The notes under the pieces: generated by a model
The model's database searches: none
The model's input: only the letters and a program-made list of their open reading frames with translations
Told to the model about the DNA's origin: nothing
Position numbers and translations under genes: made by a program
Shown: positions 1,113 through 60,951 of the stretch, in pieces
Layout of the letters: the number at the start of each line of letters is the position of its first letter
Numbering within the stretch: the first letter of the stretch is position 1
Source: Spraguea lophii
Taxonomy: Eukaryota > Microsporidia > Spragueidae
Length of the DNA stretch: 60,991 nt
Direction: 5' to 3'
Assembly (NCBI GenBank): GCA_001887945.1
Contig: LDOQ01000126.1
Location: 1-60,991 of the forward strand

Positions 1113-1245
1113 GTTTTTTTATAATTGCAAATAATTTATAACTTTATGAAGAAAATACAAAGAGAGTATTCAAAAATATAAAAAGATTAAAAGTAATATA
1201 AGTGAGTCGCTTAGTCCGCTAGTCGTGAGTTGATAAACAAATAAC

Positions 1246-1260
1246 AAATCCAGGGATTCG
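1246..1260 (+). repeat. Left target-site duplication of the young SINE
   Basis: AAATCCAGGGATTCG occurs here and again at 1766-1780, exactly flanking the SINE at 1261-1765. The sequence is the B-box region of the older SINE, showing that the target was another SINE head. Confidence 0.9.
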
Positions 1261-1765
1261 TAGTCCCGTCTGGCCCAGTGGTCGTGGGGTGGTAACCAAA
1301 CCCCAAGCCTGGCGGGTTCGAATCCCTCATCCAGAAAAATTTTCAAAACAAAAAAAAAAAAAAAAGAATAATAATAAACGGAGAAGAGAAGAAAAAGGTT
1401 GTTGAGTGGGTGAGGTTTCGATAGTGCAGCATAGCTGTGCCTTGTATGACGGCCCGCTACTGGATTAAAGTAGTGTTTAGCTGATGTAGTTGCAATCCCT
1501 GTATTGATTTGTGACTCGGCCAATACTATGCAACGAAAGAGGCTGGGAATTCCTTAAGAGCTGGAAGTGGGGGCGGCGACGCGCACCAGACGCAAAATCC
1601 TAACATTCTGGAGCATAAGGTAAGATGAGATTAATGCATATCTGTAGCGAAACCAGTTAGTACAAGTTTAATTTCGCTCGAGGAACCGAAGGTCTCAGAC
1701 CATGGTAGGCCGCAACCGGCCAGGAAATTTTGATAAATAAAAGTTTCATTCATAAAAAAAAAAAA
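1261..1765 (+). mobile_element. tRNA-derived SINE, young copy 1
   Basis: Starts TAGTCCCGTCTGGCCCAGTGG. An RNA polymerase III A box (TGGCCCAGTGG) lies at about 1270-1280 and a consensus B box (GGTTCGAATCC) at about 1315-1325, spaced as in a tRNA. An A-rich linker follows, then a body of about 350 bp with much higher GC than the host DNA, a terminal stem-loop at 1724-1747 and an A-run at 1752-1766. It is flanked by a 15-bp duplication (1246-1260 and 1766-1780). Head with A/B boxes, A-tail and target duplications together define a SINE moved by a LINE reverse transcriptase. No LINE is visible in this window. Open frames read antisense through the body are by-products. Confidence 0.9.
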
Positions 1766-1780
1766 AAATCCAGGGATTCG
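1766..1780 (+). repeat. Right target-site duplication of the young SINE
   Basis: Exact 15-base copy of 1246-1260, directly after the SINE A-tail. Confidence 0.9.
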
Positions 1781-2278
1781 AATTCCTCACACTTAAAAAA
1801 TTTTCAAAAAAAAAGTGGAAGAGAAAGGTTGTTGAGTGGGTGAGGGTTAGTATCATAGCATTAACCGTCCCGTACGACGGCCCACTATTAAATTAAAGCA
1901 ATGTTTAACTAATGTAATGACAATCCTTGTATTGATTTGTGACCGGGTCAATACTATGCCAAGAAAAAGGTTGAGAATTTATTAAGACTGGGAGAACGCA
2001 CCATACGCAAAATCATAATTTTCTAAAGCATAGGGTAAAACGATACTGATATATATATCCGTAACAAAACTAGTTAGTACTGGGTTAAATGCGCTTCGGG
2101 AGGGACCCAAAGTTATAAAATATGGTAAACCGCAGTCATTAAGAAACTTTAATAAATAAAAGTTTCATGTTTAAAAAAAATAAAATAAGTTTATCTTATT
2201 ATAAATATTTTATTAAATTAAAAAGAAAACCTCGATGAAAGTCTCATTATAGAATGAATGTGATTAGATAAAAATATT

Positions 2279-3329: not shown

Positions 3330-3656
3330 TTAATTTGTATTTTCTTCTTCTTGATTATTTCTTTCTTTTATATATTTTTTTTTTTCTTCATTATATAGCT
3401 CATCAAAATTTTTAATATTTTCTAAAAATTCTTTTAAATCTTCTCCATCGTATTCTTTTATTTTGAATGTATCATTTACATAAAACCATATATCTTCGTT
3501 AGTGATAATATTCGGTCTTTTTAGATTTCTGAGTATAGCACCCATAGTAAAATATTTACTGATACCATATGGTAACATATTACCTAATGCTTTAAGTATT
3601 CGGATTTTTATGGATGGATCGTTACCATTTGCTTTTTTATGATTTGATGTTTGCAT
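3330..3656 (-). CDS. Putative Eaf7/MRGBP (CT20)-like chromatin subunit
   Basis: 108 residues. The block KALGNMLPYGISKYFTMGAI (about residues 24-43), followed by ITNEDIWFYVNDTFKIKEYD (about 51-70), resembles the fold and spacing of CT20-family proteins (Eaf7, MRGBP), whose signature is a P-x-G-x-x-K/R-x-F-x-M helix followed by a D-I-W-x-x-L-x-x-x-Y helix. Those proteins are subunits of the NuA4/TIP60 histone acetyltransferase. The C-terminus is acidic and Glu/Asn/Lys-rich. A CCCC stretch about ten bases before the ATG fits the microsporidian start signal. It lies convergent to the family B transposon and tandem with the transporter upstream at 3967-4875. The assignment rests on motif resemblance only; an unrelated small helical protein remains possible. 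Confidence 0.5.
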   Translation of the reverse strand: MQTSNHKKANGNDPSIKIRILKALGNMLPYGISKYFTMGAILRNLKRPNIITNEDIWFYVNDTFKIKEYDGEDLKEFLENIKNFDELYNEEKKKYIKERNNQEEENTN

Positions 3657-5785: not shown

Positions 5786-6279
5786 TTTTTTAATGAAACT
5801 TTTATTTATCAAAATTTCCTGGTTGGTTGCGGCCTACCATGGTCTGTGACTTTCGGTTCCTCGAGCGAAATTAAACTTGTACTAACTGGTTTCGCTACAG
5901 ATATGCATTAATCTCATCTTACCTTATGCTCCAGAGTGTTAGGATTTTGCGTCTGGTGCGCGTCGCCGCCCCCACTTCCAGCTCTTAAGGAATTCCCAGC
6001 CTCTTTCGTTGCATAGCATAGTATTGGCCGAGTCACAAATCAATACAGGGATTGCAACTACATCAGTTGAACACTACTTTAATCTAGTAGCGGGCCGTCA
6101 TACAAGGCACAGCTATGCTGCGCTATCGAAACCTCACCCACTCAACAACCTTTTTCTTCTCTTCTGCATTTATTATTATTATTTTTTTTTGTTTTGAAAA
6201 CTTTTTCTGGATGAGGGATTCGAACCCGCCAGGCTAGGGGTTTGGTTACCACCCACGACCACCGGGCCAAGCGGGACTG
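5786..6279 (-). mobile_element. tRNA-derived SINE, young copy 2 (reverse)
   Basis: Read on the minus strand this is the same element as 1261-1765 and 14258-14750: head AGTCCCGCTTGGCCCGGTGG, B box GGTTCGAATCC, GC-rich body, terminal stem-loop (GAAATTTT / AAAGTTTC) and an A-run at the left edge (5786-5791). No target duplication is evident; instead the element sits at the junction of the two duplicated units A1 and A2, so it may have been inserted before, or taken part in, the rearrangement. Confidence 0.88.
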
Positions 6280-8649: not shown

Positions 8650-9045
8650 AACCTAAGATTGGTGGTTTCTAAAACATAAGAAACTTATACTAATTCTATT
8701 TGTTATATATATACATTAATCTTATCTTACATTATGTATCAAAATAATAAAATCTTGTGTACGATATAATAATCATTCGTTTAAATTTAATAAAAGACTA
8801 ATTTTCTTCTTGGCATAATATCAGGGAAATAACATCGCCATAGAAAACACAATTATCCCAACTAAGGACCATTTTAATCCCGCACTAAACCATTATACAA
8901 GGTATAGTTAATATTGCGCTATCAAACCTCCATCTATTCAACAACCTTTCTTTTCTAACTTTTATTTTTGTTATCTACAAAATTTTTTGAGTAACTCATT
9001 CAAATCCATCTGGCTTAGTATTTGGTTATCATAACCTTAAGATAT
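8650..9045 (-). repeat. Heavily decayed SINE copy (reverse)
   Basis: Reading the minus strand recovers, in order, the SINE head remnants (GGTTATGATAACCAAATAC then GCCAGATGGATTTGAATG at about 8990-9035), the AGGTTGTTGAATAGATGGAGG block at about 8925-8950, the CTTGTATAATGG block near 8895, and the ATATGTATA-like body near 8710. It is much more diverged than the young copies. Confidence 0.6.
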
Positions 9046-14243: not shown

Positions 14244-14257
14244 TTTATAAATATTTA
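14244..14257 (+). repeat. Left target-site duplication of SINE copy 3
   Basis: TTTATAAATATTTA, repeated exactly at 14751-14764 after the element's A-run. Confidence 0.88.
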
Positions 14258-14750
14258 TAGTCCCGCCTGGCCCAGTGGTCGTGGGGTGGTAACCAAACCC
14301 CAAGCCTGGCGGGTTCGAATCCCTCATCCAGAAAAAATTTTCAAAACAAAAAAAAAATAATAATAAACGCAGAAGAGAAGAAAAAGGTTGTTGAGTGGGT
14401 GAGGTTTCGATAGTGCAGCATAGCTGTGCCTTGTATGACGGCCCCGCTACTGGATTAAAGTAGTGTTCAACTGATGTAGTTGCAATCCCTGTATTGATTT
14501 GTGACTCGGCCAATACTATGCAACGAAAGAGGCTGGGAATTCCTTAAGAGCTGGAAGTGGGGGCGGCGACGCGCACCAGACGCAAAATCCTAACACTCTG
14601 GAGCATAAGGTAAGATGAGATTAATGCATATCTGTAGCGAAACCAGTTAGTACAAGTTTAATTTCGCTCGAGGAACCGAAAGTCACAGACCATGGTAGGC
14701 CGCAACCGGCCAGGAAGCTTTGATAAATAAAAGTTTCATTCGTAAAAAAA
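14258..14750 (+). mobile_element. tRNA-derived SINE, young copy 3
   Basis: Same element as 1261-1765, starting at the same base (TAGTCCCG). A box TGGCCCAGTGG and B box GGTTCGAATCC are intact, the body is nearly identical to the other young copies, the terminal stem-loop varies to GAAGCTTT / AAAGTTTC (pairing kept by G-U), and a short A-run ends it. It is flanked by a 14-bp target duplication. It separates TOP2 from the exosome-like gene, only 58 bp before the latter's ATG, so it may influence that promoter. Confidence 0.92.
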
Positions 14751-14764
14751 TTTATAAATATTTA
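14751..14764 (+). repeat. Right target-site duplication of SINE copy 3
   Basis: Exact copy of 14244-14257. Confidence 0.88.
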
Positions 14765-15215: not shown

Positions 15216-15419
15216 ATAATATCAAAATAAAAATTAATTTATATTAAAAATCGAATTGTGGAAGAAGCATTATTATATATATAAAAATAAAATTTCTAAG
15301 AAATATTTTATGTTGATTTTAAAAAAAAGAATTGAATCGTGAATATGTTATTTAAGTTTCTTTATTTTTGAAGATTTATGTCCTATAGAATATATTCTAC
15401 TTATTTTTTTACAAATAAC

Positions 15420-15735
15420 GCTTTAATTATTATCAAAGTATTTCGGCTATTTGCAACCTACCATGTTCTATGTTTTTTAGTTATTAAAAATACATTTAAA
15501 TTTATGATAACCAGTTTTGCTATAAAGATATATTAATCTCATTTTATCTCATGTTCAAAGGGTTGTGGTTTTGTGTATGATGTAATCATCATTTTATCAT
15601 CTTTAATGATATTCCAATCTCTTTTTTAATATAGTATCAGTCGAGTTTCTGACTAATACAAAGATTGCAACTACATTGGCTAAACACAACTTTAATCTAG
15701 TAATGGGATTGTCATATAAGGTGCAAACAAGTTAC
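15420..15735 (-). repeat. Heavily decayed SINE copy (reverse)
   Basis: On the minus strand the order of blocks follows the SINE: CCTTATATGACAATCCCATTACTAGATTAAAG (read in parts), then GTAGTTGCAATCTTTGTATT near 15660, GAGATTAATATATCTTTATAGC near 15525, and ATGGTAGGTTGCAAATAGCC near 15455. The head is lost. Inactive. Confidence 0.65.
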
Positions 15736-15941
15736 GCTTGAACTCTCACTAACTCGACTATTTTATTCGATTAATAGACATTAAAATATCGTATCTACAA
15801 TTTAATCCTCGTGAAATAATAAATTTTCTAAAAAATAATTTACTTAAATCAATCAACGAAAAAAATTATTTGGTAATAAACTATATTCTGAATTCAAAAC
15901 ATTTTTATGCAATATTCAAGATTTAAAATTTATTAAATTTA

Positions 15942-43140: not shown

Positions 43141-43424
43141 AATAATAACACAAATTATTTTTTGAATTTTTTATTGCAATATATGGAAGAAAATGAGAAA
43201 TATTTATAGTGAAATTGATTTTAATTGAATAAATTAAGTTTTATTTAATATATTGTTTATATTTTCTTTATTCATTTTTTTGATCTTTTCTTGATATAAC
43301 CTAGAATATAATACCAATTATATTCGTTAACCATATTTTTAGTCAAACTTTTATTAATGGAAATCTTCGATTTATTATAATATGAAACACCGGAATTTTT
43401 AAATAACATTTTAATTATTATTAA

Positions 43425-43735
43425 GGTACTTGGCCAATTGCGACGATCATGATACAAAACCACAGGTTTTTTAAAATACTAATAACTTGTTATGATTGTT
43501 TTCAGTACATATACGTATTAATCACATATCATTTTATATCAGAGTATTTGATATTTTTGTATAAGTATTTCATCATTATGAAGTAATTTTAATGGGATTT
43601 TAACCACCTTCCTAATATAACCAATCGAGATGTTAATCAATTCAGATATTGTAACTACACAAAAAATAATTGGTTTAATTTAAATATGTGGTGACCATAC
43701 AATGTGTCATACGCAAACATACAAAACTTAGGAAA
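43425..43735 (-). repeat. Heavily decayed SINE copy (reverse)
   Basis: On the minus strand the body blocks occur in SINE order: GACACATTGTATGGTCACCAC (head-proximal CTTGTATGACGGCC), TGTAGTTACAATATCTGAATTG near 43650, a GATTAATACGTATATGTACTG block near 43510, and GTCGCAATTGGCCAAG near 43435. The tRNA head and tail are gone. Confidence 0.6.
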
Positions 43736-44527: not shown

Positions 44528-46735
44528 TTATTTCCCGAAAATATCTCTATATTTCATTAATCTCCATTTTCTTTCATCCATTATTTTTTCTACTTCATCA
44601 CAACATATTCTTAATTCCATACACTCTTTTCTTAACAACATTTCAAAATTTTGAGCTCGTTTTCCTAATTCTTTACTGTTATTCTCTGTAATGTTGTTTT
44701 CAACCATTTTACATTTATTGGATAAAAATTTAATGTGGTTTTCCAATGTTATAATCATATTTCTCTTTTCATATCCAATAGAACTTTCTGAATTAAAAAA
44801 ATTAGAACATTTATCATTGGCTTCTACTTTCAATTCTAAATTATCAACTGATTCATCTGAAAAAATAACTTGTAAGTTTTGTAATCCTTTGTAATTTTTT
44901 ATAATATCTGTTTGATATGAGATGATTGATGGAATAATATTTGTTTTTATTATGTCAATTAATGTTTCTGCTTCTACCTTAATTATATTGCAATATTGTT
45001 CTAATTGGTAATGATGCCTAGAAAATATTTCGGATGGTGTTAATACTTCCATTTCTGTAAAAAGGTCAATATTTTCTCTTTTAACCGTGACATCGAATGC
45101 TTCTACTGCATTTTCTATTTTGGGGATACCTAATTCTTTTGCAGTAATAATCCATTCCTTAGAATATCCATCACCATTAAAAATTATTCTCTCTGAATTT
45201 AAAAGATATGCCTTCAAAATTTTTATAAGAACATCTTTGTTTAAAGTGTTAGGATCTTCATTTATTGCTACCATATTTTCATTATATTCCAACATAAAAT
45301 TTTTAAGTTGTTTTGCTATTATTGTATTTAAAACTGTCATCGGCCTTGCACAATTGGCGGATGAACCTACCATTCTAAATTCAAATTTATTAATATTGTA
45401 AGCAAACGGTGAGGTTCTATTTCTATCACAGGTGTCGATTTTAATTTCAGGCAAAATACTTAATATTTGTTTCAATGATTTTTCTTTTATTCCTTCAGAT
45501 TCCAATCCACACATGGCCTTAAGAATTCTAAGCATATTTTCACCTATAAAAACAGACATAATAGATGGTGGCGCTTCATGCCCTCCTAATCTTAAATCAT
45601 TAGATGCCATTGCTGTTGAAGCACAGAGAAGTTCTCCGTATTTATTGATTGCAGATAAAGTGTTCACAAAAAAAGTTAAAAACTCCAAATTTTCAATTTC
45701 TGTATCTTTAGGTGTAAATAAATTTTTACCGTTACTTTCTAAGGACCAATTACAATGTTTACCAGATCCATTTACCCCTTCAAAAGGTTTTTCGTGGAAA
45801 AGTACTGTTAAATTGTGTTTTTCCGCTACATCTATTAGTATATTCATAAACAATGTATTATGATCTATAGCAATATTCATCTCTTCGTGTATATGCGCAA
45901 ACTCGTATTGATTTGGTGCAACTTCATTATGTCTTGTTTTAATAGGTATTCCCAATAAAAAACATTCTTTAGCAACATCACACATAAAATCTTTTACTTT
46001 GTTAGGGATAACACCGAAGTAATTATAACACATTGCTTGACCTTTGGGCTGTGCCGCACCCAGTAACGTTCTCCCTGTTATTTTGATGTCTATTCTTGAA
46101 TCTAAAACATTTTTATCAATCAAAAAATATTCCTGTTCCCAGCCTAATAAGGATTTAAAATTGTCTGAATTATTCTCAAATATTTGAGAAACATCTTTAG
46201 AACTTTTTTTCAACACATTTAAGGATTTTAACAGAGGTGTTTTATAATCCAAAGATTCCCCATTAAATGAAATAAATATACTTGGAATATACAATATCCT
46301 CTTGTATATAAACGCGGGTGATGTTGGATCCCAACTACTATAACCTCTCGCTTCGAATGTATTTCTAAGTCCTCCAGAAGGAAAAGAAGACGCATCAGGC
46401 TCTTGCTGTATTAAACTCTCGCCACCCATCTCATGGATAGGCCTTGAATTTTCAATATCAAAAAATGAATCGTGTTTTTCTGCCGTAACACCGCTTAAAG
46501 GCTGAAACCAATGACTGAAATGTGTAGCGCCATTTTGAATACCCCAATCTTTCATTGCTTTAGCAACACTTGTGGTCAACGATTCATCCAATGACATTTT
46601 CCTTCCAATCATTCCATCCAAACGAATAAATTCTTTTTTGCTTAAATAATCTCTCATCTTTTTCATATCAAACACTTTTGAACCAAATTCTTTAGATACT
46701 TGTGGTGAGTACATATTGTTATGTTTGTCTAACAT
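44528..46735 (-). CDS. Glutamine synthetase type III (GSIII)
   Basis: 735 residues, the GSIII length (about 700-730) and not the 360 of the usual eukaryotic GSII. Diagnostic blocks: FSHWFQPLSGVTAEKHDSFF (about 73-92), metal-binding WEQEYFLID (199-207), TRHNEVAPNQYEFAHIHEE (268-286), ATP-site KPFEGVNGSGKHCNWSL (316-332) and SSANCARPMTVLNTIIAKQL. It makes glutamine from glutamate, ammonia and ATP. GSIII is mainly bacterial and patchy in protists and algae; its presence here suggests acquisition by transfer or retention of a rare form. Codon use looks as AT-rich as the neighbours, so not a recent arrival or contamination. Start: ATG at 46735 after AGTCC. Convergent with the small membrane protein. 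Confidence 0.93.
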   Translation of the reverse strand: MLDKHNNMYSPQVSKEFGSKVFDMKKMRDYLSKKEFIRLDGMIGRKMSLDESLTTSVAKAMKDWGIQNGATHFSHWFQPLSGVTAEKHDSFFDIENSRPIHEMGGESLIQQEPDASSFPSGGLRNTFEARGYSSWDPTSPAFIYKRILYIPSIFISFNGESLDYKTPLLKSLNVLKKSSKDVSQIFENNSDNFKSLLGWEQEYFLIDKNVLDSRIDIKITGRTLLGAAQPKGQAMCYNYFGVIPNKVKDFMCDVAKECFLLGIPIKTRHNEVAPNQYEFAHIHEEMNIAIDHNTLFMNILIDVAEKHNLTVLFHEKPFEGVNGSGKHCNWSLESNGKNLFTPKDTEIENLEFLTFFVNTLSAINKYGELLCASTAMASNDLRLGGHEAPPSIMSVFIGENMLRILKAMCGLESEGIKEKSLKQILSILPEIKIDTCDRNRTSPFAYNINKFEFRMVGSSANCARPMTVLNTIIAKQLKNFMLEYNENMVAINEDPNTLNKDVLIKILKAYLLNSERIIFNGDGYSKEWIITAKELGIPKIENAVEAFDVTVKRENIDLFTEMEVLTPSEIFSRHHYQLEQYCNIIKVEAETLIDIIKTNIIPSIISYQTDIIKNYKGLQNLQVIFSDESVDNLELKVEANDKCSNFFNSESSIGYEKRNMIITLENHIKFLSNKCKMVENNITENNSKELGKRAQNFEMLLRKECMELRICCDEVEKIMDERKWRLMKYRDIFGK

Positions 46736-47029: not shown

Positions 47030-47372
47030 TGAGTTCAAAAAAACAACGATTAATAATCTAACTTGATTATCCCTTGTATCAATATTCAATTGTTATATTA
47101 AAGTGGTGTTTAGTTGATATAAGCTACAATCTTTGTATTATTAATGTCCCAAGGAATATATTGATAGCAAAGATGCTAGTATTTTACTAAGACTGATATA
47201 ATTATGATTACACAATCCGCAAAATCTTAATGTTTTAGAATATAAAATGAGATGAGATTTTGTATATCTGTAACCAACTTAGTTAGTACAAGATACACGT
47301 ATTTTAAGACACTAACAGTCTCAGACCATAGTGAGTTACAACTGGATCGAACATTTCGGCTATAATAAAAAT
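47030..47372 (+). repeat. Heavily decayed SINE copy (forward)
   Basis: Follows the SINE body in order: GAGAAGAAAAA at 47030, ATATTAAAGTGGTGTTTAGTTGATATAAGCTACAATC near 47095-47135, CCGCAAAATCTTAATGTTTT near 47218, GAGATGAGATTTTGTATATCTGTAACC (in parts) and the TTAGTTAGTACAAG ... GTCTCAGACCATAGTGAGTT block near 47280-47340. The head is lost. Confidence 0.7.
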
Positions 47373-60743: not shown

Positions 60744-60951
60744 AGAGATGAGATTCATTTGGTTCATTAGTTGTGGAATAATAATCAAATCTTAAGCCTA
60801 GTGAGTTTGAACTTCTTACCTGCTCAGTCAATCGTTTTCCCTTTTATCTTTTTTTTGTTTGGAAAATATTTCCAAATAAGAAATTCAAACTCATTAAGCT
60901 TATGGTTTGGTTACTACCCTACGATTACTGAACCAAATGAATCTCATCTCT
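60744..60951. repeat. Palindrome of two SINE heads facing each other
   Basis: Arms 60744-60766 and 60929-60951 are perfect 23-base inverted repeats (AGAGATGAGATTCATTTGGT...). Each arm continues, with mismatches, into a tRNA-like SINE head: GTTCATTAGTTGTGGAATAAT...AAGCCTAGTGAGTTTGAAC on the plus strand and its mirror from about 60870 on the minus strand (GTAACCAAACCATAAGCTTA). The centre (about 60815-60870) holds unrelated sequence. Confidence 0.65.

Follow-up and report, generated by a model that had tools for sequence, protein, structure and literature searches.

The window analysed here is the whole 60,991-nucleotide stretch of contig LDOQ01000126.1 from the microsporidian Spraguea lophii. 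It holds three near-identical copies of a repeat, located where a sequence-only reading had placed them, and relative to copy 1 the identity is 95.8% for copy 3 and 93.6% for copy 2 (Table 1). No ATG-initiated open reading frame of at least 100 amino acids overlaps 1261-1765. The young copies give a consensus of 494 bp that ends in an A-run, and the length of this A-tail varies among copies of the element, hereafter the SINE. The GC content of the consensus is 46%, with 48% in its body, in a window of 23% GC. The earlier reading had also listed five decayed copies. Using a profile search with a threshold of E ≤ 1e-3, four of these were recovered, while the fifth (43425-43735) left a weak match only. 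For the first of them, given as 1195/1781-2178, the downstream part was well defined while the upstream part was weak. In total, eight stretches of SINE sequence amount to 3.0 kb, or 4.9% of the window. At the contig end (60700-60991) a remnant of the SINE head is followed by its own inverted copy (by reading), which is either a true palindrome or an assembly artefact. Elsewhere in the window, positions 44528-46735 of the reverse strand encode a Type III glutamine synthetase with three Pfam domains over cut-off; we know of no such enzyme from microsporidia.

Table 1. SINE copies and their parts in the window
Feature	Position	Strand	Remarks
SINE copy 1	1261..1765	+	full length, A-tailed; 1.6% substitutions relative to the young-copy consensus
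Left target-site duplication AAATCCAGGGATTCG	1246..1260	+	within an older SINE copy, at its B-box region
Right target-site duplication of copy 1	1766..1780	+	same 15 bp as left
A box TGGCCCAGTGG	1271..1281	+	putative internal pol III promoter, consensus match
B box GGTTCGAATCC	1315..1325	+	putative, consensus match; Rfam tmRNA match 1314-1326, E 0.085
3' module common to LINE-A 3' UTR	1677..1725	+	49 bp, 86-88%; GGTC-TCA-GACC and GGCCG-CAAC-CGGCC (by reading)
Terminal inverted pair GAAATTTT...AAAGTTTC around GATAAATA	1724..1747	+	directly before the A-tail (by reading); like LINE-A terminus TAAATAAAATTTTC
Older SINE copy split by copy 1, upstream part	1207..1253	+	weak, E 0.0027 (260-bp search)
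Same older SINE copy, downstream part	1773..2179	+	~20% diverged; profile match
SINE copy 2	5786..6279	-	full length; no target duplication of at least 10 bp (6 bp only)
SINE copy 3	14258..14750	+	full length; duplications TTTATAAATATTTA at 14244-14257 and 14751-14764 (14 bp)
Decayed SINE	8653..9030	-	~28% diverged; profile match
Decayed SINE	15405..15761	-	~28% diverged; profile match
Decayed SINE	47070..47358	+	~30% diverged; profile match
SINE head remnant, nothing else	60843..60937	-	profile positions 9-103
Possible very old SINE remnant	43417..43545	-	weak, E 4.6e-6 (600-bp search); outside the profile matches at E ≤ 1e-3

The consensus is ordered as TAGTCCCG, A box, B box, A-rich linker, body, 3' module, a TAAATAAAAGTTTC motif and the A-tail. 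A single common start had been proposed for the three window copies; this holds for two of them, which begin with TAGTCCCG, while copy 2 on the reverse strand reads CAGTCCCG. The boxes were scored with the patterns TGGCNNAGNGG at element position 11 and GGTTCGANNCC at position 55, which we take to be the consensus pol III A and B boxes. Both occur at these positions in copies 1 and 3 and in the consensus, and the A box of copy 2 carries one change, in agreement with the near-consensus boxes described before. The exact arrangement of the two boxes was found twice in the window and in none of 50 mononucleotide shuffles. The consensus contains a single run of four or more T, at position 80. ARAGORN called no tRNA in the SINE copies tested, and Rfam at its gathering scores matched nothing in the SINE copies of the window. 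When the limit was relaxed to E 5, copy 1 gave four sub-threshold Rfam matches, one of which is the 13-nt tmRNA match (tRNA clan) at the B box. In the assembly, 57 tRNA genes were located. The tRNA origin given in the earlier description rests on the boxes and their spacing, and the head is taken here as a putative tRNA-like pol III promoter.

The sequence-only reading had proposed that a mobile SINE should recur across the genome with target duplications of variable length. A search of the S. lophii assembly (5.27 Mb, 73 contigs; 453 first-look candidates, 40 of them scored) with 1261-1765 identified at least 40 places that are 95-100% identical over near-full length, on 25 contigs, and the duplications described below vary between 11 and 15 bp. 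The family is therefore dispersed and extends beyond this contig. The best named match of the assembly's DNA topoisomerase II is from Dictyocoela muelleri (62%), followed by Astathelohania contejeani and Encephalitozoon, among the matches listed, which marks the host as a microsporidian. Nine contig starts (90 kb), chosen regardless of SINEs, contain 16 SINE stretches amounting to 5.2 kb. Three further stretches lie in seven other 10-kb loci (L018, L025-L030) chosen for reverse-transcriptase matches, and there are none in three shorter reverse-transcriptase loci (L009, L011, L013). Together with the window this makes 27 stretches in ~231 kb, from which we estimate, by extrapolation rather than by counting, ~600 SINE stretches genome-wide.

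Two inverted copies ~250 bp apart on contig C45 (92441-93686) are 98-99% identical to copy 1, compared with 95-97% for the remaining 37 full-length copies listed, which suggests that the pair marks a subfamily. Lone pieces of SINE positions ~330-417 occur at L034:903-991 (91% over 75 bp) and L042:3754-3799, and are either deletion remnants or a part of the SINE reused elsewhere. Matches to the SINE head and nothing else were found at L040:9124-9207, at L060:15-91 and at 60843-60937 of the window. By reading, no clean duplication was seen around these three, which may stem from a head-only monomer element.

Perfect target duplications of 11-15 bp flank 12 of the 16 young full-length copies present in ~308 kb of sequence, several loci of which were chosen because they hold good SINE copies. 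The window copies 1 and 3 have clean duplications of 15 bp and 14 bp, respectively, in line with the two of 14-15 bp that had been noticed. As a control, flanks were mismatched between copies, and repeats of at least 10 bp were then found in 2 of 240 pairs. A clean duplication is absent from the other four young copies. The three older full-length copies, which bring the full-length total to 19 and stand outside the duplication count, yielded none either. Insertions were also reversed in silico by joining their flanks. When the flanks of copy 1 are joined over the 15-bp duplication, an older SINE aligns to consensus positions 21-97 (E 2e-5) and then 119-493; likewise, joining the flanks of an insertion on C10 restores a split older SINE that aligns over 11-494. 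An older SINE thus runs through the junction in two of the three joined insertions, the third, on C13, adjoining an older SINE rather than lying within it. Further evidence came from paralogous flanks on C3 and C21 that are ~78-80% alike: a full SINE in C21 faces ~17 bases in C3, and a 5'-truncated SINE in C3 faces ~13 bases in C21, making the empty sites reciprocal. These sites were read from the blastn pieces; the automatic alignment misplaces the middle. An additional 5'-truncated copy, on C4, is flanked by the 8-bp repeat TACAAGAG (by reading). The duplications, truncations, empty sites and nested insertions are marks of a retroposon.

Divergence from the SINE consensus ranges from 0.4% to ~30% across 36 stretches, these being the profile matches longer than 250 positions among 61 in total. 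Eighteen stretches are less than 5% diverged, none lies between 5 and 10%, and 18 are at 10-30%, young stretches being over-represented because some loci were picked for good copies. Mean GC content falls from 45% in the 18 young stretches to 34% in 17 old ones, and the old stretches carry 1033 GC-to-AT changes against 319 AT-to-GC changes. The spread of divergence together with the drift in composition indicates long residence under the AT bias of the host plus recent amplification, in line with the long history that had been deduced from the decayed copies.

A pol III-transcribed SINE would depend on the reverse transcriptase of a LINE, and the earlier reading had argued that one must exist, or have existed, in this genome. 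The assembly contains nine matches to the reverse-transcriptase family, and by reading several of these belong to LTR-type elements. The frames read place C73:40003-40479 (L009), C44:27834-28307 (L011) and C48:16630-17118 (L010) among LTR-type retroelements. A 1239-residue frame at C2:65028-68771 (L013, L016), with two reverse-transcriptase matches (one over cut-off) and Asn/Asp-rich stretches, presumably resembles a telomerase reverse transcriptase.

A LINE family, LINE-A, is present. At the end of contig C72 a 479-residue frame takes in the last part of an APE-type endonuclease and the first part of a reverse transcriptase, with another endonuclease piece upstream in a different frame. The Pfam matches occur in the order PF03372 (E 0.0009), PF14529 (E 0.0019) and PF00078 (E 0.0018), all below the curated cut-offs. 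Against the PDB, LINE-A matched five sequences at E ~1e-9, four of them named LINE-1 ORF2, and RVT_1 exceeded its cut-off in a decayed stretch on C48 that also matches P0001 next door. By its predicted domains LINE-A is an APE-type LINE, with an N-terminal endonuclease followed by a reverse transcriptase. Elements of the Dong-R4 class are not known to have an N-terminal APE-type endonuclease, and LINE-A differs in this from the Dong-R4 class listed for Nosema bombycis.

The C72 copy runs off its contig, and a complete LINE-A is absent from all contigs read. C11 begins with the C-terminal part and 3' UTR of a like element, and 20 other places carry these in full or partially. The two portions are tied to the same element by one decayed copy on C1, where reverse-transcriptase sequence is followed by the C-terminal part in a span of ~540 bp. 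A contig end is no more than 1.2 kb away at seven of the 21 places, and four of these reach it to within ~5 bases, which points to recent LINE copies as sites where the assembly breaks. The aligned LINE-A ends share the terminus TAAATAAAaTTTTCTTAT...AAAAAA in 19 of 21 cases, with L057 and L058 stopping short, and all 12 short LINE-A copies have a common end, an A-run. With a gap of at most 12 nt tolerated between the repeat and the LINE start (9 nt in L047), flanking repeats of at least 9 bp were detected for 5 of the 12 short copies, compared with 5 of 132 control pairs; the 20-bp repeat of L048 overlaps the LINE A-tail. The GC content of the LINE is 42%, against 46% for the SINE.

Comparison of LINE 3' ends with the SINE tail, another check proposed in the earlier reading, revealed a shared sequence. 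Approximately 65 nt past the frame end in L044, the LINE-A 3' UTR contains the stretch CTCCAAGAACCAAAGGTCCCAGACCATGGTGGGCCGCAACCGGCCAGGA (read from the aligned ends), which corresponds to SINE positions 417-465 with 86-88% identity to copy 1 (blastn E down to 5e-11). The same 49-bp module is 80-88% identical across the SINE copies listed, and its region is covered in all 16 young full-length copies. Thirteen LINE-A places span the module; in ten of them it matches the SINE profile at E ≤ 1e-3, in the other three it does not. Profile matches confined to the module region were found nowhere outside LINE-A copies. Beyond the module, both elements probably have a terminal motif in common, as their termini are alike in TAAATAAAA-TTTC and 4 of 500 shuffles scored as well. 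The SINE lacks some 150 bp that lie between module and terminus in the LINE-A 3' UTR; its tail therefore differs from a straight copy of the LINE-A end as known.

The two inverted pairs within the module, GGTC/GACC and GGCCG/CGGCC, are both perfect (by reading), and the predicted fold of copy 3 pairs GGCCG/CGGCC and GAAGCTTT/AAAGTTTC. The SINE end folds with a z-score of -2.0, 8 of 200 shuffles being as stable. For the LINE-A 3' UTR, 114 of 200 shuffles folded as well, and its minimum-energy fold is without the GGCCG/CGGCC hairpin. Because LINE-A folds no better than its shuffles, we treat a shared RNA recognition structure at the two 3' ends as a hypothesis. A search of the LINE 3' ends for known RNAs returned one sub-threshold match only (E 0.46).

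A second LINE family, LINE-B, was found at C21:1-1148 (L027), C20:61525-61718 (L064), C47:8003-8196 (L063), C42:4123-4298 and C16:82950-83121, and its sequence likewise terminates in an A-run. Four of the ten other LINE-B matches start at one point (query 956-958), in a GGAACC stretch, a fixed 5' stop of a kind not usual in truncated LINE copies; no tRNA-like head lies upstream of the two short copies that were read. The LINE-B 3' end showed no clear excess of folding stability (34 of 200 shuffles as good). It was considered as a source of the SINE tail on the basis of the local alignment GGAACCGA-GG...AGA..CATGGT, which is not supported, as 97 of 500 shuffles scored as well. At the start of C21 (L027:1-3570), pieces of LINE-B, LINE-A and LINE 5' sequence follow in series and lead, near 3550, to a small number of TTAGG repeats that may mark a former chromosome end.

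Taken together, the dispersal, target duplications, empty sites and occasional 5'-truncated copies of the repeat, the presence of a LINE and the shared module, all read from the DNA, lead us to infer that 1261-1765 is very probably a SINE with a tRNA-like head whose 3' end is shared with LINE-A and which is moved by the LINE-A enzyme through that end. Transcription by RNA polymerase III would be driven by the A and B boxes inside the SINE. The 3' region of the resulting RNA, either copied from the LINE-A 3' UTR or of common ancestry with it, would be recognised by the LINE-A reverse transcriptase, as the shared sequence suggests. The LINE-A endonuclease would nick chromosomal DNA and the SINE RNA would be copied into the nick, a step that could produce the 11-15 bp duplications and is consistent with the truncated copies and empty sites.

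A further proposal goes beyond this, and we hold it tentatively, with the balance somewhat against it: that Microsporidia would have here their first characterised SINE and also their first LINE-SINE pair sharing a 3' recognition domain, active until recently in a genome of 5.3 Mb, and that the domain is a discrete RNA unit acting as a separable entry signal for the enzymes. The idea of a separable signal comes from the strong homology between SINE and LINE-A, the short LINE-A copy L045 and the four short LINE-B copies, all of which start at about the same RGAACC. It is weakened by the SINE profile match to LINE-A, which reaches ~20 nt further upstream than that point, and by the shuffles that equal the LINE-B match to the SINE tail.

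The main rival is that the LINE recognises the poly(A) tail alone, in the relaxed manner proposed for human L1 and Alu, and that the 49-bp module is a relic of origin. The variable length of the SINE A-tail fits such a mechanism, as does LINE-B, which has an A-run and short copies of its own, and strict recognition is weakened by the missing 150 bp and by the ordinary folding of LINE-A. We nevertheless regard it as rather unlikely, given that every young SINE covers the module, that most LINE-A places spanning the module match it, and that the terminal motif is alike as well. Recent horizontal transfer of SINE and LINE from an animal host would explain why both stand so far above the 23% GC of the window, and other transposable elements have been exchanged between microsporidia and animals (PMC4202319). 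This is improbable in view of the divergence of up to ~30%, the fall in GC from 45% to 34% and the excess of GC-to-AT changes, all of which argue for long residence.

Two other origins were rejected. Certain copies are near neighbours, for instance the inverted pair on C45, as might be expected of a non-autonomous DNA transposon or of segmental or tandem duplication. By reading, the start of the SINE is no inverted copy of its A-tailed end, and the variable-length duplications, the A-tails, the 5'-truncated copies on C3 and C4 and the empty sites make either process very improbable. The putative pol III boxes in the head could also belong to a family of host RNA genes, an explanation to which we give almost no weight because Rfam matched nothing at gathering scores, copy 1 yielding four sub-threshold matches, and because at least 40 copies are dispersed, many with target duplications. 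Movement by the LINE-A enzyme through the shared 3' end remains our preferred reading.

The sequence-only reading had named LTR retrotransposons and DNA transposons as the microsporidian mobile elements usually described. This needs correction, as four families of non-LTR (LINE) elements each were reported in Anncaliia algerae and Edhazardia aedis (PMC4202319), non-LTR elements in Trachipleistophora hominis and Nosema ceranae (PMC3486916), and non-LTR transcripts in S. lophii itself (PMC3749934), all LINE-type like LINE-A. With microsporidian LINEs already published, a LINE enzyme is less surprising than had been implied, and with a probable LINE partner present, the SINE finding is stronger than first stated. 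The word SINE does not occur in the available text of these three papers or of PMC4948709. Among the matches listed for literature on microsporidian SINEs and non-LTR elements and on fungal SINEs, there was no characterised microsporidian SINE or LINE-SINE pair, and the sole relevant SINE mention was a line in the repeat table of N. bombycis (28,669 bp, 0.18%; PMC3614468). That class is likewise microsporidian; in the available text it is one table line, without a promoter, target duplication or LINE partner described, and its share of 0.18% compares with 4.9% of the window here.

SINEs and LINEs are known kinds of element, and it is the microsporidian host that is unexpected. Microsporidia are a textbook case of genome reduction, yet 5-6% of the window and of the nine contig starts consists of an element that would borrow its enzyme. 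Because the SINE is accompanied by a probable LINE partner, 3'-end recognition becomes testable in reduced fungi, and the SINE could serve as an insertion marker for strains or species of this parasite.

Alu insertions show target duplications, and the SINEs of stringent LINE/SINE pairs have a tRNA-type head, target duplications and 5' truncations. In the human L1/Alu system the LINE enzyme works in trans on an A-tailed RNA, as proposed here; the difference is that mammalian L1 3' ends resemble those of SINEs in poly(A) only (PMC3747384). tRNA-related SINEs are also found in fungi, for example AfuSINE2 of Aspergillus fumigatus, which by description resembles the S. lophii element in its tRNA-related nature (putative in S. 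lophii), its short target duplications and its host, a fungus in the wide sense (PMC5063351). SINEs whose 3' ends derive from LINEs form a recognised class, and in stringent LINE/SINE pairs, as in S. lophii, the SINE shares its 3' end with a LINE of its own genome (PMC3747384). Unlike those pairs, the elements described here inhabit a microsporidian with a 5.3-Mb assembly, and they share ~50 nt and the terminus while the stretch between is not shared.
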